Below are positions 17,568-24,692 of a DNA stretch of 24,692 nt, piece by piece; position 1 is the stretch's first letter, and every line of letters begins with the position of its first letter. The DNA is from a virus. The notes beneath the pieces were generated by a model. The model was not told the origin of the DNA. It saw nothing but the letters and a program-made list of their open reading frames with translations, and searched no databases. The stretch lies in the IMG/VR virus record IMGVR_UViG_3300014962_000047, positions 1 through 24,692 of that record; one strand, 5' to 3'. Both the position numbers and the translations under genes were made by a program.

Positions 17568-18101
17568 ATGACTATTTATCACAGTCCAAATAAATATCCG
17601 CCCGGTTTTTATGTTTATTGTTACGTCAGAAACGATGGAACGCCATACTATTTTGGAAAAGGCCAGAAAAACAGAGCTTGGAATAAAAAATATCATCCAT
17701 TACCAAAAGATAAAAGTAAAATAATAATTGTGGAGTCTAATTTAACAGAAATTGGTGCCTTGTCTTTAGAAAGAAGAATGATTAAATGGTGGGGAAGAAA
17801 AGATAATGGAACTGGAATTCTAGTTAATCACACAGATGGGGGTGAAGGATTTATTGGATTAAAACAATCAAACGACCATAAAGAAAAACAATCCATAAAT
17901 GCTAAGAAAAGATGGAATGATAAATTTTTTAGATTGAAAAATTTAAAAAATTGGAAATTAACATCACCTACTGGTGAAGAATTCATTATTCAAAACTTAT
18001 ATGATTTTTGTTTAAAAAATAATCTTCAACAAAGTTTAATGTCTAAAGTATCCAGAGGAGAAAGATCAAACCACAAAGGATGGAAAGTAATTCAAGTATA
18101 A
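17568..18101 (+). CDS. GIY-YIG family homing endonuclease, free-standing
   Basis: The protein has 177 aa. The nuclease domain lies at about 11-95: FYVY (14-17) for the GIY part, YYFGKG (27-32) for the YIG part, R36, and the metal-binding Glu E68 in [11 protein letters not shown], followed by [10 protein letters not shown]. Residues 130-175 ([32 protein letters not shown] in parts) look like the NUMOD-type helix-turn-helix that anchors such enzymes to DNA. Free-standing (Seg-like) enzymes cut related phages that lack the gene and are copied into them. The gene sits before gp4 and its stop overlaps the gp4 start (TAATG). A weak AAGG ribosome-binding site lies 9 bases before the ATG. Confidence 0.88.
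17573..17580 (-). promoter_or_regulatory. T4-type late promoter octamer GATAAATA, leftward, for the baseplate operon
   Basis: The minus strand reads GATAAATAG, identical to the rightward copy at 17503. It is 88 bases upstream of the gp48 start codon and is the only good promoter candidate at the head of the minus-strand operon. It lies inside codons 2-5 of the GIY-YIG gene on the other strand, so that coding sequence and this promoter constrain each other. Confidence 0.7.
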
Positions 18102-18535: not shown

Positions 18536-19018
18536 TTAATTTCTCAAAAAATCTCTATGGTATTTTTCCCTGGCTTCCTGTATAACCAGTTCTGCTAATT
18601 CCAAATCTTCATACATTCCTAATTTGATTCTTTTAGAATTTACCATAAGTTGAGACCACCACTTTTTACATGACGAAACCCAAGTAATACCTTTTATACC
18701 AGATTTACTATTTTTACTTATTTTTCTATTATGCATATTTTGATTGTGGGTACACACTCTAAGATTTTCTATTTTGTTGTTTAGTGTATCTCCGTCAATA
18801 TGGTCTATATGAGTCGGATTGAAATCATGATGTAAAATAAAAATGATTCTGTGTACTTTATACCTTTTTCCATATATTTTGACAACACGATAACCACTAG
18901 AATGATAACAACCGGCTTTAACACCTGGAGTTAATCCATTCCTGGATCCTTTCTTCCAATAAATATGTCCATCAGAGTAATGGAAAAGTTGTTCTAAGGT
19001 AGCTTTGGATAATTCCAT
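18536..19018 (-). CDS. HNH homing endonuclease with AP2 DNA-binding domain
   Basis: The protein has 160 aa from the chosen ATG. An in-frame ATG at 19135 would add 39 residues unlike this family and would run into the start of the next gene, so 19018 is preferred. The HNH core is THIDHIDGDTLNNKIENLRVCTHNQNMHN at about 69-97, here split as THIDHIDGDTLNNKIENL (69-86) and RVCTHNQN (87-94). An N-terminal part typical of these enzymes (GHIYWKKG..., SGYRVVKIYGKRYKVHRIIF) precedes it. The C-terminal AP2 part is SGIKGITWVSSCKKWWSQ plus KRIKLGMYEDLELA (106-143). It is convergent with gp4: the two stop codons abut with no terminator between them. Confidence 0.88.
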   Translation of the reverse strand: MELSKATLEQLFHYSDGHIYWKKGSRNGLTPGVKAGCYHSSGYRVVKIYGKRYKVHRIIFILHHDFNPTHIDHIDGDTLNNKIENLRVCTHNQNMHNRKISKNSKSGIKGITWVSSCKKWWSQLMVNSKRIKLGMYEDLELAELVIQEAREKYHRDFLRN

Positions 19019-19029
19019 ATTATTACTTG

Positions 19030-19071
19030 AAAAGTCAACACCGATACTTATAAGATTTTGTAGTGACTTTT
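19030..19071. repeat. Inverted repeat upstream of the HNH gene
   Basis: AAAAGTCA (19030-19037) and TGACTTTT (19064-19071) form an 8-bp inverted repeat with a 26-base spacer. It lies in the 110-base non-coding gap between the HNH gene and the 192-aa gene. It could be an operator, a weak hairpin in the HNH leader, or a trace of the insertion. On the minus strand the spacer holds TATAAGTA, a weak late-promoter-like sequence. Confidence 0.35.
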
Positions 19072-19116
19072 GAGTGAAACCACAGGTAATAATAAAAGAT
19101 TGCCTAAAAATTATGA

Positions 19117-19124
19117 GATAAATA
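19117..19124 (+). promoter_or_regulatory. Late promoter-like octamer GATAAATA just before the 192-aa gene
   Basis: The plus strand reads GATAAATAC and ends 4 bases before the ATG at 19129, the same spacing as the CATAAATA in front of gp25. If it acts as a late promoter, the expected start site would lie at or inside the start codon, so a conventional role for this gene is doubtful. No other promoter is evident for the right-hand operon. Confidence 0.4.
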
Positions 19125-19128
19125 CACG

Positions 19129-19707
19129 ATGGCATACTTACTAGACCGAATCAATGAATCGCTTGCGAAAGAGGGATTAACCAATCGCACCAATGCTGCT
19201 CGTACATGGTTACAAGCAAAGTTAAAAACATTGAGTCCAACTCGCATGGCGCTATTCCAAGATTCAAAAAGGTTGAAGAGTAATACCATTATAGGTCGTA
19301 TGTTCTTCTTCTATTACGACCCGAAACTGAAGGATACGTTGCCATATTACGACAGGTTCCCATTGGTCTTACCAATAGAACAATACTCAGACGGGTTTCT
19401 AGGGTTGAATCTACATTATATTCACCCAAAGCAACGCATCATTCTCTTAGATAAATTAAGTGAATATGCAAACAATAAGAAGTTCGATGCCACAACACGC
19501 CTTAGACTATCATATCAAACAATAAAAAGTGCATCGACCATATACGAACATACACCGTGTGTCAAGAGATATTTGTTTAAACATGTGGAATCAAGATTCG
19601 TTGAGATTGATGCCAACGAATGGGATATTGCCGCATTGTTACCTATGGAATCATTCGTGAGAGCATCAGCAAGTAAAGTTTACGCAGAATCTAGGAAAAA
19701 ATTCTAA
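19129..19707 (+). CDS. Conserved T4-like phage protein of unknown role
   Basis: This 192-aa soluble protein has no membrane segment or signal peptide. The central stretch MFFFYYDPKLKDTLPYYD, followed by RFPLVLPIEQYSDGFLGLN and LHYIHPKQR (about 58-102), is highly aromatic. I recall it as conserved across large T4-like marine phages, but without an assigned function. The C-terminus is basic (KVYAESRKKF). It is the first gene of a plus-strand set of tube, hub and tape-measure genes, and its stop overlaps the next start (TAATG). A virion assembly role is inferred from position. Confidence 0.75.
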   Translation: MAYLLDRINESLAKEGLTNRTNAARTWLQAKLKTLSPTRMALFQDSKRLKSNTIIGRMFFFYYDPKLKDTLPYYDRFPLVLPIEQYSDGFLGLNLHYIHPKQRIILLDKLSEYANNKKFDATTRLRLSYQTIKSASTIYEHTPCVKRYLFKHVESRFVEIDANEWDIAALLPMESFVRASASKVYAESRKKF

Positions 19708-20498
19708 TGTCATTCTCACCACAGTTATTCATGACCAACATCAACGCCAAGGAGGGTCTTGCTCGCCCTTGTCGTTATGAGGTTGTTCTTCCCATTCCAA
19801 CATACATCAATCAGTATATTGGCAATTCATTCATTGAAAAGTTTCTAAACTTACCAAACACTTTGGTATCGGACATTTCAAACATTTTTAATAACACACA
19901 AGACGTTCAATCCAGAAGTGCGAATCCTGATATTTCAAGATATTTGGCGATGCAATGTGATGCTGATGCTGCCGAGTTACCTGGTAAATCACTTATCACC
20001 GCTGACTATAAAGTTTATGGACCTAGTATTAAAATTCCATATCAAACACAATACGCAGACACAAACCTGACGTTTCTCTGCACCAACGAATTCTACGAAA
20101 GAAAATTGTTTGATCGTTGGATAGATGCGATCATGCCTTCAGATACAAACAATCTGAGATATCCAAGAGGTCAGAATTCCAGATATTTAACCAACATCAA
20201 AATTATTCAGTATGATGAGTTCATTCGCCAAATTTTTGCAGTTGAACTTATTGATGCTTATCCAGTTAGTATCGCACCACAACCATTATCTTGGATGGAT
20301 GATAACTTTCATAGATTGACTGTGAACTTTACATATTCAAAATACAGAGTTGTATATCAAGGTTCTTATGACCTTATTGCTGCTGCAACTGCACTGTTTG
20401 GTGTCAAGGCATCTCCTTGGTTTCAAAACATTCAACCTACAGCAACACAACCTCTTGGCACACTGTTTAATGATATTAACAAATTGTTTAATTACTAA
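19707..20498 (+). CDS. gp54: Tail-tube-fold protein, probable baseplate tube initiator gp54
   Basis: The protein has 263 aa (T4 gp54 is 320 aa). The middle and C-terminal part look like the phage tube fold: CDADAAELPGKSLITADYKV, PSIKIPYQTQYADTNLTFLCT, FYERKLFDRWIDAIM, then IIQYDEFIRQIFAVELIDAYPVSIAP and LTVNFTYSKYRVV, the typical series of beta-hairpins shared by gp19, gp48 and gp54. A separate gp48 is already assigned in this window, and this gene neighbours gp26, which favours gp54. A second tube-like or gp19-related protein is the main alternative. It starts by TAATG coupling. Confidence 0.6.
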   Translation: MSFSPQLFMTNINAKEGLARPCRYEVVLPIPTYINQYIGNSFIEKFLNLPNTLVSDISNIFNNTQDVQSRSANPDISRYLAMQCDADAAELPGKSLITADYKVYGPSIKIPYQTQYADTNLTFLCTNEFYERKLFDRWIDAIMPSDTNNLRYPRGQNSRYLTNIKIIQYDEFIRQIFAVELIDAYPVSIAPQPLSWMDDNFHRLTVNFTYSKYRVVYQGSYDLIAAATALFGVKASPWFQNIQPTATQPLGTLFNDINKLFNY

Positions 20499-20513: not shown

Positions 20514-21257
20514 ATGGCACTACCTAAAATTGATTCGCCAATTTTTACAACAAAATTGATTTCAACAGGAAAAGAAGTAAAGTTTAGACCTTTTACTGTT
20601 AAAGAAGAAAAGTTGTTTCTGATTGCAAACGAATCGGACGATCCCAAAACAATCACTGATGCAATCATTCAAGTTTTGAATAATTGTATTTTGGACGATA
20701 CACAAGTCGAGTCTCTTCCACTTTTCGACATTGAATTCTTGTTTTTAAATTTAAGAGCAAGATCAATTGGTGAAGTTGTTGATTTAAATTATAGATGCAA
20801 CAATTTAGTAAAAGACGAAGAAGGTGTGGAAAAGAAGTGTAACAATAAAGTTGAAATAAAAGTCAATTTATTGGAAATCAAACCTACAATTTCCGAAGAA
20901 CACAAAAACAAAATTGAAATCAACGATAAGTTGGGTATTGTTATGAAATATCCAACAATGGATGCCGTTGGTAAAATTGAAGGTTCTGAAGAGTTGGATG
21001 AAGTTGATATGGTTGTCGAAATGATTTTGAGTTGTATCGATTACATCTATGATGAAAATAGTGTCTATTATGCAAAAGATTCTACCAAAGAAGAGTTGTT
21101 GGAGTTTATTGAATCATTAAGTACGAAAGATATGGAAAAACTAAAAGTATTTTTTGATACCTTACCGAAACTTAGTAAAAAGGTTGAGTTTAAATGCAGT
21201 AAATGTGGATACACGGAAGACATTGATATTGAGGGACTCCAAAGTTTTTTCATGTAA
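20514..21257 (+). CDS. gp26: Baseplate hub/tail assembly protein gp26 (T4_baseplate family)
   Basis: The protein has 247 aa (T4 gp26 208 aa). The N-terminus has the family pattern LPKIDSPIFTTKLISTGKEVKFRPFTVKEEK split over 3-33, then a helical part with FDIEFLFLNLRARSIGE (71-87). Four cysteines (C95, C109, C228, C231; the last two as CSKC) could bind one zinc ion. A GGAG ribosome-binding site lies 5 bases before the ATG. Two codons before the stop is a T TTT TTC heptamer, after which the -1 frame is open for 62 codons. A share of ribosomes may therefore make a 308-aa longer form. The gene lies directly upstream of the candidate tape-measure gene, as chaperone genes do in other tailed phages. 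Confidence 0.85.
   Translation: MALPKIDSPIFTTKLISTGKEVKFRPFTVKEEKLFLIANESDDPKTITDAIIQVLNNCILDDTQVESLPLFDIEFLFLNLRARSIGEVVDLNYRCNNLVKDEEGVEKKCNNKVEIKVNLLEIKPTISEEHKNKIEINDKLGIVMKYPTMDAVGKIEGSEELDEVDMVVEMILSCIDYIYDENSVYYAKDSTKEELLEFIESLSTKDMEKLKVFFDTLPKLSKKVEFKCSKCGYTEDIDIEGLQSFFM
21245..21251 (+). promoter_or_regulatory. Candidate -1 ribosomal frameshift site T TTT TTC
   Basis: The gp26 frame reads AGT TTT TTC ATG TAA. The heptamer fits the X XXY YYZ slippery rule exactly, with both Phe tRNAs able to re-pair one base back on TTT TTT. After the slip the next codons are CAT GTA AGC in a frame that stays open to 21439. A long-range 10-bp stem begins 23 bases downstream (21275-21284 with 21349-21358). 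Confidence 0.65.
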
Positions 21258-21439
21258 GCTTTTGTTATGATAATCTAGGGAATTTTTACAAGACAAACTT
21301 TGCTTTAATGCAACACCACAAGTATAGTTTGACTGAAATTGAGAACCTAATTCCCTGGGAACGAGATGTATATTTGAATTTGTTGATTCAATTTTTAGAA
21401 GAAGAAAAAGAACGTTTAAAAACACAAAGTAGAAGGTAA
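21251..21439 (+). CDS. -1 frame extension of gp26 (frameshift product; gp51-like or chaperone T-part)
   Basis: The frame is open for 62 codons with stop TAA at 21437-21439. It reads HVSFCYDNLGNFYKTNFAL and then MQHHKYSLTEIENLIPWERD, and ends in a charged helix (FLEEEKERLKTQSRR). The only ATG is at 21308 (43 codons) with no Shine-Dalgarno element. The preceding residues CYDNLGNFYKTNFAL read as real protein yet have no ATG, GTG or TTG start. Fusion to gp26 by -1 frameshift at 21245-21251 would give 246 + 62 = 308 aa. T4 places gene 51 after 26, so independent gp51-like translation from 21308 is the alternative. The stop lies 3 bases before the next start. Confidence 0.7.
   Translation, partial: HVSFCYDNLGNFYKTNFALMQHHKYSLTEIENLIPWERDVYLNLLIQFLEEEKERLKTQSRR
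21275..21358 (+). repeat. 10-bp inverted repeat inside the frameshift extension
   Basis: CTAGGGAATT (21275-21284) can pair with AATTCCCTGG (21349-21358) with nine Watson-Crick pairs and one U-G pair; the loop is 64 bases. It starts 23 bases after the slippery heptamer, farther than in classical cases, but could still pause ribosomes or regulate the next gene. Confidence 0.45.
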
Positions 21440-21442
21440 AAA

Positions 21443-23377
21443 ATGTCGTCTTTAGCTGACTTGGTTAGAAGTAGAAGAGAATCCGGTGGTTCAATCGCCG
21501 GTTCTCTTTCGTATGGATTTAAAGAAAGAATGAAGGAATCTTTCGATCCTAGACGAATGATTAATCAAGGAGGATTGTTGACTGCTTTGTTTCCAAGTTT
21601 AAAATCTTATAAAGCAGGTTCTGGTAAAAGATCGATAGGATCAAAATCAATTCTTGGTGAAAATTCACAATTATCTTCAGATCCTATATTAGAATCAATT
21701 AGATTAAACACCAGAACATCAGCAAAAAATTCTTTAGTTCTTCCTTCTATGGCAAGAGATGTTTTTGTAATGAATAAAAACATCAAACAGATGGTGAAAA
21801 TATTTGGTGGTAAACCTAAAGACACCGCCGATGAGTGGTTTTCTAGACAGGCAGCAAGAGAAGCCGCATACGAAAGTCGTTTTGGTCTAAAAACAAAATC
21901 CAAAAAAGACACAAAACCAACTCCAGAAAAAGAGCCTGACAAAAAAGGATTTTTCAGAACTATTGCTGACATGGTTATGAAAATACCTTTTATCGCATCA
22001 CTCGCTGGAGTCATTTCAAAATTAAGTGGTGCTATTGCCAAAATTGCAGGACCTGTAGGAAGTGTTATTGCTGTTGTTGCGTTGTTGGGTAAAACATTTT
22101 TTGGCTTAATTAGATTTTTGTCAAAATTCAAAATGTTTTCTGCGTTGATTGGAACTTTAGGTCTTGGTGTGTTAATGGACAAATGGAATAATTTTCAAAA
22201 AATGTCCGGAGATTTAAACAAATCAATAGGTGACACACAAAGCATTTCAAAAGGTCTTGGTGCCGAAGGAACATCACCAGGTGGTGTTCAAGAAAAGACA
22301 TATATGGAAGCAGCAGGATCAGGACTAAGTGCATATGTTTCTGTAAAAGGTGCACAGGCAGTTAGTCGATGGGCTCACAAACGTGGAGTTGCATCAAAAG
22401 CAGCAAAAGGATTCACACCTAAAATTGGATCTGAAGCAAAATTAGGAAAACAAAATTATCGATTTATGGGTAAACAATGGGCTGAAGTTACTGCTTCTGG
22501 TAAAACTGGCAGAATGGCAGAAAAAGGAATTACAAAAGAATTGGCTAGAATTGCATCACAAACAAAAGGTGAAAAAATGTTGATGCGTATTTCCAAATCT
22601 TTATCGAAAATAATTAAAAATGGTAAAGTAGTTGAATTCATAACAAAATTACTTGGAAAGTTCGGTAAAAAAATTGCAATGATTGCTGTCAAATTTTTGG
22701 TTGGTGTTTTGGGTGTTCCTCTTGCTGCAACTGGTCTTGGTGCTCTTTTTTCAATTACAATGTGGGGACTGGCAGCATATGAACTTTATGACCTTTATCA
22801 GTGTTTATATGGGCCAGGTGGTATACTAACAGAAATGGAGGGTGAAAGTGATACATCACCTACACAGGAATCGACCGGTCCCGCAAGCGCATTGCCTGGT
22901 GCAACAGGCAGTCGAGGTACACAATCTACTTCAATTGGTGGAGTAAAGGGTGCTTCCGATAAACGTCAGGCTGTTGCAGTAAAAGAAATGCAATCCGATA
23001 AAGAAATATTTAAAACTGACGATTATCTTGCTTGGAGAGAAGGACAATGGAAAGAAAAAGGATTTTCTTCCATGAGAAAAAATCTCAGTAGTGGAATGTA
23101 TGATCCCTTATTTGGTGTTGATGCTTACAAAAAAGCAAAAAATTTAACCGGCACGCAAAAAACTGCAGGTGATAAAATTAAAAATGGAAATGCAGAAGTT
23201 AGAAAGGCAAGAACAGAAGCACAAAGACCACAGGTCAATGTAATGAATAAAGAAAAAACAACCCCTAAAAAATCAACACAATCAGGTGGAACAGATATAA
23301 CACAAGCATCTGTCTATGATGAGGAATTTTTAAAACTATTGGGAATGTCCACAACTAATTTAGGAAAAACAGCGTGA
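21443..23377 (+). CDS. Candidate tape-measure or hub protein with hydrophobic segments
   Basis: The protein has 644 aa (T4 tape measure gp29 is 590 aa). Residues 1-150 form a helical N-terminal region also found in the next gene: DLVRSRRESG, DPRRMINQGGLLTALFP, AKNSLVLPSMARDVFVM, EWFSRQAAREAAYES. Residues 181-245 and 410-450 are long hydrophobic stretches with Gly, as in tape-measure proteins that insert in the host membrane. The region between is basic and Ala/Gly-rich. The last ~180 residues are polar. It follows gp26 and the frameshift extension at 3 bases, with an AGAAGG ribosome-binding site 6 bases before ATG. That order fits a tape measure. A baseplate-hub membrane-contact protein is the alternative. 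Confidence 0.6.
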   Translation: MSSLADLVRSRRESGGSIAGSLSYGFKERMKESFDPRRMINQGGLLTALFPSLKSYKAGSGKRSIGSKSILGENSQLSSDPILESIRLNTRTSAKNSLVLPSMARDVFVMNKNIKQMVKIFGGKPKDTADEWFSRQAAREAAYESRFGLKTKSKKDTKPTPEKEPDKKGFFRTIADMVMKIPFIASLAGVISKLSGAIAKIAGPVGSVIAVVALLGKTFFGLIRFLSKFKMFSALIGTLGLGVLMDKWNNFQKMSGDLNKSIGDTQSISKGLGAEGTSPGGVQEKTYMEAAGSGLSAYVSVKGAQAVSRWAHKRGVASKAAKGFTPKIGSEAKLGKQNYRFMGKQWAEVTASGKTGRMAEKGITKELARIASQTKGEKMLMRISKSLSKIIKNGKVVEFITKLLGKFGKKIAMIAVKFLVGVLGVPLAATGLGALFSITMWGLAAYELYDLYQCLYGPGGILTEMEGESDTSPTQESTGPASALPGATGSRGTQSTSIGGVKGASDKRQAVAVKEMQSDKEIFKTDDYLAWREGQWKEKGFSSMRKNLSSGMYDPLFGVDAYKKAKNLTGTQKTAGDKIKNGNAEVRKARTEAQRPQVNVMNKEKTTPKKSTQSGGTDITQASVYDEEFLKLLGMSTTNLGKTA

Positions 23378-24692
23378 GTACGTTTACTGATTTAGTTAAA
23401 AGTAGAAGAGAAAGTGGATTATCAATAGGGAGTTCTCTTGGCCAAAGTTTTAGAGAATATGTCAAAGAAAAAATTGATCCTAGAAGATTTCTTAATCAAA
23501 CCGGTTTATTAACGGCGTTATTTCCAAAATTAAAAGCATATGAAGCAAAAAGTGTAAAAAATAAAGTAACAAAAGAATCTTTAGTGAATCAAGATAATTT
23601 TAATTCTGCAACACTACAAGATATAAAAGAAGATACACAACTTTTTGCCAAAAATTCTTTGGTTTTGCCTTCCATGGCAAGAGATATTTTTGTGATGAAA
23701 GAAAATATCGCAAAAATTATTAAATCAAAAGGCAAAAAACCATCCACTTCTGCCAAAGAGTGGATGGCCAGACAAGCAGCAAGAGAGGCTTCATACGAAA
23801 GTAAATTTGGTAAAAAACCAATTGAAGAAGTTGTTAAAAATATAACCAAAAAATCATCTTGGTTATCATCACTTATTGGAGTTGCTGCGGTTGGAGGCCT
23901 TTCTGCATTTTCTGGATCAGCATCAGCAAGTATCAATAGAACACCCGGACAATACACGGGAAGTGATTTAACTTTTAATCAATTATCCAGAGAAGAACAA
24001 GATAGACTTTTGGATGCACAAGCTGTTCAAGAAGGTAAAAATAAACCAGGAAGTTTACCAAACAGATTAAACAATCCTGGTGCTATGAAATTTTCCAAGT
24101 GGCAAGAGAAGTTTGGTGCAACAAGAGATGAATACGGATTTGCCAGATTTCCCACTATGGAACAAGGGCGGGCGGCACAAAGACAATTGTGGGAAAAAAG
24201 TTATGGTAATATACCTATAACACAAGCGGTATCCAAGTGGGCACCGGATGCTTCACCAAATTACGCAAATGCTTTGATTCAGTCAACAGGAAGACCTTCA
24301 TACACATCCGGTGGTAGAGAGTCGTGGTTAGGATCAATTTCCGGTAGTTTTGGTGAATCAAGACCTGGACATACTCATGCTGGAGTAGATATTCGAACAT
24401 TCAATTATGGTGTTCCAGTTCACGCTGTCGAATCTGGAGTCGTTACTAGAGTTGATGGATATGATGTTGATGGTTATGGCAATCAAATTGAAATAGAACA
24501 CGCAGGTGGTTATAAAACAAAATACGCACACTTAGGTGCAATGAATGTTAAACCAGGACAAAAAATTAATGCAGGTGATGTAATCGGAAATGTTGGTAGA
24601 ACAGGTAGAACGTCTGGTCCACATTTACATTATGAAGTTATGAAAGATGGTAGAAAAATTAATCCAGAATCATTTAATGTTTCGCATAATCC
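23374..24692 (+). CDS. Paralogue of the preceding protein carrying an M23 peptidase (3' end outside window)
   Basis: The open frame runs from a GTG start (GTGA overlap with the previous stop; TAGGA ribosome-binding site 8 bases before) to the window edge, at least 439 aa. Residues 1-150 repeat the N-terminus of the 644-aa protein (DLVKSRRESG, DPRRFLNQTGLLTALFP, AKNSLVLPSMARDIFVM, RQAAREASYES). A short hydrophobic segment lies at 161-185. Residues 225-305 have NRLNNPGAMKF and SKWAPD, a pattern found in phage murein-degrading virion proteins. Residues 325-425 are a lysostaphin-type M23 domain with the zinc ligands H335-AGV-D339 and H417-L-H419, plus YAHL at 384-387. It probably cuts cell-wall cross-links during infection. 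Confidence 0.88.
   Translation, partial: MSTFTDLVKSRRESGLSIGSSLGQSFREYVKEKIDPRRFLNQTGLLTALFPKLKAYEAKSVKNKVTKESLVNQDNFNSATLQDIKEDTQLFAKNSLVLPSMARDIFVMKENIAKIIKSKGKKPSTSAKEWMARQAAREASYESKFGKKPIEEVVKNITKKSSWLSSLIGVAAVGGLSAFSGSASASINRTPGQYTGSDLTFNQLSREEQDRLLDAQAVQEGKNKPGSLPNRLNNPGAMKFSKWQEKFGATRDEYGFARFPTMEQGRAAQRQLWEKSYGNIPITQAVSKWAPDASPNYANALIQSTGRPSYTSGGRESWLGSISGSFGESRPGHTHAGVDIRTFNYGVPVHAVESGVVTRVDGYDVDGYGNQIEIEHAGGYKTKYAHLGAMNVKPGQKINAGDVIGNVGRTGRTSGPHLHYEVMKDGRKINPESFNVSHN

Follow-up and report, generated by a model that had tools for sequence, protein, structure and literature searches.

Does the gene 26 homologue of this phage yield one protein or two? In the stretch of DNA analysed here (24,692 nucleotides, hereafter the window), the open reading frame (ORF) for gp26 runs into a short open frame shifted by -1, which is followed by a long ORF. 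The features under discussion are as follows.

19707–20498, plus strand: tail tube-like protein just upstream of gp26 (PHROG 45 tail tube, 1.9e-27)
20514–21257, plus strand: gp26 ORF, 247 aa, putative short tail-assembly chaperone (G-like, TAC-N; PF12322, PHROG 150)
21245–21251, plus strand: zero-frame slippery heptamer T_TTT_TTC, separated from TAA by one sense codon (ATG); read directly, conserved
21251–21439, plus strand: -1 extension, 62 codons plus TAA, predicted T-like, gp51 C-terminal part of a long form (TAC-NC; PHROG 634, purifying selection in the -1 frame)
21308–21310, plus strand: earliest ATG in the frame of the extension, which we do not take for a start (no SD-like motif, conserved codons upstream)
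21443–23377, plus strand: 644-aa ORF, candidate tape-measure protein, so placed by its position 3 nt after the extension stop

Read directly, the 3' end of the gp26 ORF is AGT TTT TTC ATG TAA, with the two phenylalanine codons at 21246–21248 (TTT) and 21249–21251 (TTC) and the stop at 21255–21257. Together with the preceding T, these codons form a classical heptamer of the X_XXY_YYZ type close to where the first ORF ends. It is in phase with the zero frame, so that a tandem -1 slip would re-pair both Phe tRNAs on UUU. The nearest upstream stop in the -1 frame is the TGA at 21230–21232, so that a slip is possible only within 21233–21257, and T_TTT_TTC is the sole classical slippery site in that interval. 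A ribosome that slipped there would read on as HVSFCYDNLGNFYKTNFALMQ for 62 codons, up to the TAA at 21437–21439, giving a predicted fusion of 308 aa with the junction peptide SFF-HVSFCYDNLGNFYK. The preliminary description of this DNA had claimed the heptamer in the gp26 zero frame, the 62 open codons, the lack of any start codon in the extension before the ATG at 21308 and a long ORF beginning 3 bases after the extension stop, and all four were confirmed in the sequence.

We then identified the proteins. The gp26 ORF matched the Pfam family PF12322 (T4_baseplate) with an E-value of 2.3e-67 (227 bits, where 24.5 is the cut-off) and PHROG 150 with 9.8e-73. The extension matched PHROG 634, 'baseplate hub assembly catalyst' (gp51), with an E-value of 2.4e-27, as well as positions 238–276 of PHROG 150. 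T4 gp26 and gp51, which a review counts among the hub assembly chaperones (PMC3004832), are built accordingly: T4 gp26 consists of the PF12322 domain alone and ends close to the zero-frame end in the window, and T4 gp51 carries PF12322 at residues 1–201, followed in one and the same frame by a tail that aligns with the window extension. The link to T4 genes 26 and 51 drawn in the preliminary description is thus borne out, T4 gp51 being equivalent to the gp26 domain plus the extension. An AlphaFold model of gp26 (pLDDT 86.5) matched models of T4-like hub chaperones in BFVD. A fold search of the PDB with this model gave no significant match, the likeness to HK97 gp13 (2ob9) being weak (TM 0.44 by target length, E 3.2, rank 26), and a sequence search of the PDB with gp26 or T4 gp51 returned nothing meaningful.

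The check that the preliminary description had proposed, an alignment of relatives in which the heptamer and the open -1 frame should both be kept, was carried out on 80 IMG/VR loci whose gp26 is 54–66% identical to that of the window, two of which end before the gp26 stop. All of the remaining 78 have the heptamer in an identical place, 10 nt ahead of the stop, as TTTTTTC in 76 and as TTTTTTT in two, and a homologous -1 extension follows in each of them wherever the contig continues. In a non-redundant set of 45 (the window, 42 relatives, Syn1 and S-PM2), the site has AGT, AAT or TCT ahead of its two Phe codons, which are TTT TTC in 44 sequences and TTT TTT in one, while TTC accounts for just 98 of the 520 Phe codons in the rest of the gene. 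Few columns of the gene are as strongly conserved at synonymous sites as the slip codons (TTT in 43 and TTC in 42 of 43 non-redundant sequences, counts from relatives that share ancestry and so do not represent independent trials), and the codons neighbouring the site vary synonymously. These comparisons indicate that the placement of the heptamer is not due to chance.

The extension itself bears the marks of a coding sequence well before its first ATG. In codons 3–19, from the junction to that ATG, 60.8% of single-base codon differences are synonymous when read in the -1 frame, while readings in the two alternative frames give 19.5% and 9.1%. Stops in this stretch, which according to the preliminary description would count against it, were looked for, and none occurs in the -1 frame of the relatives compared. 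To judge from these substitutions, purifying selection has acted on the -1 reading of the extension right from the junction.

These data bear directly on the alternative, found in the annotation of several GenBank cyanophage records, that the extension forms a small gene 51 of its own and that its translation begins with the ATG at 21308 or with a non-standard codon. Such an arrangement has precedents: the annotated gp51 of Syn1 begins at an internal ATG lying 50 nt past gp26, and in ValKK3, Mendera, Pootjesviridae, VP-1 and Aglimvirinae the stop of the first gene overlaps an ATG (TAATG or TGATG), which could restart translation. However, neither the window nor most of its relatives has a start before the ATG at about +53 (the majority of close relatives lack a start codon all the way from the gp26 stop to an ATG some 50–53 nt downstream), an SD-like 4-mer 4–18 nt upstream of the extension's first ATG is absent from 43 of 43 sequences, and the codons ahead of this ATG are held under selection in the -1 frame. 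A start at 21308 does not explain the sequence, given this coding before the ATG and the missing SD-like 4-mer, and a separate gene would also leave the conserved heptamer without explanation. We therefore regard a separate gene as very unlikely; the earlier claims that the ATG at 21308 has no ribosome-binding site and is preceded by protein-like sequence both held up in the SD scan of 43 sequences and in the selection on the -1 frame. Still less probable is that the frames are joined in the RNA, by an RNA polymerase that slips on the six Ts and gains or loses bases in the mRNA. A T6 run is indeed present and T7 variants exist, but the run stays at T6 in most relatives, where longer runs would be expected to be favoured, and the seventh base and the codon phasing (TTT TTC, TTT TTA) fit tandem tRNA re-pairing. 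As for a fusion gene that has decayed or was sequenced wrongly and involves no functional frameshift, errors or mutations in such runs do occur, as in one Menderavirus-like record that is one base off, yet the same junction recurs in about 200 loci from many assemblies, a conservation that refutes this reading and leaves it a negligible probability. In the record concerned (L280, compared to L279, near position 1950), the run is T5 instead of T6 and gp26 is shifted to the +1 frame, through either mutation or an assembly error.

A -1 slip of the ribosome is strongly supported by these comparisons, and gene 26 ribosomes probably slip back one base at the T-rich site to make both a short and a long tail-assembly chaperone. 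The supporting features are present in the sequence: the site, its phase, the conserved -1 coding frame, the lack of a plausible alternative start and the homology to T4 gp26 and gp51. Most ribosomes would stop at the TAA at 21255–21257 and release the 247-aa gp26 as the short form, while a fraction would slip by -1 on T_TTT_TTC, both Phe tRNAs re-pairing to UUU, and read the 62 further codons, yielding a 308-aa form with the gp51 domain as its C-terminus. By analogy with lambda gpG/gpGT, the domain shared by the two forms would coat the tape-measure protein, the presumed product of the gene that follows, and the extension would bring in tail-tube subunits. In searches for stimulatory elements, the largest conserved downstream structure that RNAalifold, which models pseudoknot-free folds, predicted in sliding windows along 43 sequences was a 2-bp stem, and no excess synonymous conservation indicative of an upstream Shine-Dalgarno-like stimulator was seen at the E-G codons. 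Taken together, we consider it very probable that a T4-like myophage makes its pair of tail-assembly chaperones from this locus, via a -1 slip on T_TTT_TTC; heptamer conservation, -1 coding and gp26/gp51 homology all support what the preliminary description had proposed for gp26 and its extension.

We next considered the distribution of this arrangement among T4-like phages. T_TTT_TTN, with C, A, T or G as its last base, was found in 128 distinct Kyanoviridae-like loci (63 of 63 and 65 of 65), accompanied by the -1 extension, which in at least one case is cut by the contig end. Site and extension also occur together in single records of Schizotequatrovirus (ValKK3), Chrysonvirus (avDM12, phiAS5) and Menderavirus, in Pootjesviridae (RHph_I1_9 and phiM9, with TTTTTTG), in Emdodecavirus phiM12, in Pelagibacter phage Mosig and in nACB2. 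Heptamer-bearing genomes have a single PF12322 copy where tested, including the complete genomes of S-PM2, Syn1 and ValKK3 (one copy each); the window, a 24.7-kb record of an incomplete genome, likewise holds one copy, the gp26 ORF, and no separate short and long PF12322 genes were found in it. Among 20 reference phages, the slip site was present in 10 of the 14 single-copy records, and six phages carry two PF12322 copies as separate short and long genes: T4, RB43, Aeromonas 31, Krischvirus FL15, Proteus phiP4-3 (Bragavirus) and Acinetobacter KARL-1 (Lazarusvirus). The five minus-strand gp26 genes of these two-copy phages (the RB43 short copy excluded) showed neither T_TTT_TTN nor a matching -1 extension. 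In a midpoint-rooted tree of 39 sequences with long branches, all T4-type gp26 and gp51 fall together on one side of a supported branch (96/95). Most single-copy relatives of T4 thus keep the frameshift, and the clustering of T4-type gp26/gp51 pairs is consistent with one duplication that replaced the slip. The simplest reading, in which the direction of change is inferred, is that an ancestral frameshift gene was duplicated once in the T4 lineage.

In one group, the -1 extension is conserved without a classical heptamer. Ackermannviridae and the Vibrio D510/K474 type have the site NTT TTY NNN TAA, and one PF12322 copy where tested; a search for loci related to the Vibrio K474 gp26 gave no matches. 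In VP-1, D510, K474 and Aglimvirinae, an ATG overlaps the stop. Among the Ackermannviridae loci (L091, L102–L116, L281–L285), Kuttervirus and Taipeivirus read GARATTTTCATTTAATTTTT, with ATT where Aglimvirinae have the stop-start ATG, and offer no canonical start for about 11 codons. Four layouts can thus be told apart: a slip site by itself (the window clade and many cyanophages), a slip site with a stop-start overlap (Schizotequatrovirus, Menderavirus, Pootjesviridae), such an overlap but no classical heptamer (Vibrio phage VP-1 and Aglimvirinae), and duplication (T4). That phages of the T4 superfamily use these as interchangeable routes to supply the C-terminal part of the chaperone is a tentative proposal that we hold to be rather doubtful. 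In the group with an overlap and no heptamer, the extension may be a free polypeptide acting in trans, or may be reached by a single-tRNA slip on T_TTY.

The window resembles lambda G/GT in having a short ORF and a predicted -1 frameshifted long form beside a candidate tape-measure gene, although its heptamer is T_TTT_TTC, unlike what we take to be lambda's slip site. In lambda, the short form binds the tape measure and the extension recruits tube subunits (PMC5009743). The same 2016 review describes T4 as the exception to the widely conserved G-T frameshift of tail chaperones (PMC5009743), a view on which our survey of single-copy T4 relatives bears. T4 genes 26 and 51 encode proteins homologous to the short and the long form, respectively, but they are separate genes on opposite strands, and T4 gene 26 lacks the slippery heptamer. 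Vandenendeviridae and Andersonviridae also make their chaperones by a -1 shift on a poly-T site before the tape-measure gene (a candidate one in the window), yet they are different phage families and use the motif GTTTTT (PMC12846349).

Judging by its title and by two papers that cite it (PMC10885494, PMC12846349), Vladimirov et al. (Virology 2022) identified the tail-assembly chaperone genes of T4-like phages: a 2025 paper (PMC12846349) refers to it for poly-T -1 signals in the TAC-N genes of T4-like phages, and PRFect (PMC10885494) for the occurrence of distinct short and long genes in some of them. By all indications in these sources, those genes belong to the same family as the window gp26, although the window comes from an undescribed metagenomic phage. 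As far as these citations convey, the frameshift mechanism in T4-like phages appears to have been published already. The interpretation given in the preliminary description is supported by the comparisons above but appears not to be new. In the literature searched, outside which Vladimirov et al. 2022 stood, we found no account of such a frameshift for cyanophages. In some cyanophage records 'gp51' is misannotated, being given as a truncated ORF from an internal ATG or left out; Syn1 (L082, 4268–4399) and ACG-2014d (H224–H228) are cases of this.

Finally, we turned to the neighbouring genes. The 644-aa ORF has hydrophobic segments near residues 173–227 and 407–440; searches against Pfam and PHROGs gave it no family match and no tape-measure match. 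Most relatives have a long ORF that starts within a few nt of the extension stop, of about 508–769 aa when complete, with a conserved N-terminus and a variable remainder. In the window, the ORF at 21443–23377 and the next one, at 23374–24690, have a 150-aa N-terminal domain in common (55% identity, E 2e-47), and the latter ends in an M23 peptidase domain. The two appear to be paralogous; one might be a tape measure and the other a hub or cell-wall hydrolase protein, with a docking domain in common. Upstream, two HNH-type endonuclease-like ORFs (17568–18101 and 18536–19135) flank the head-closure gene at the strand switch.
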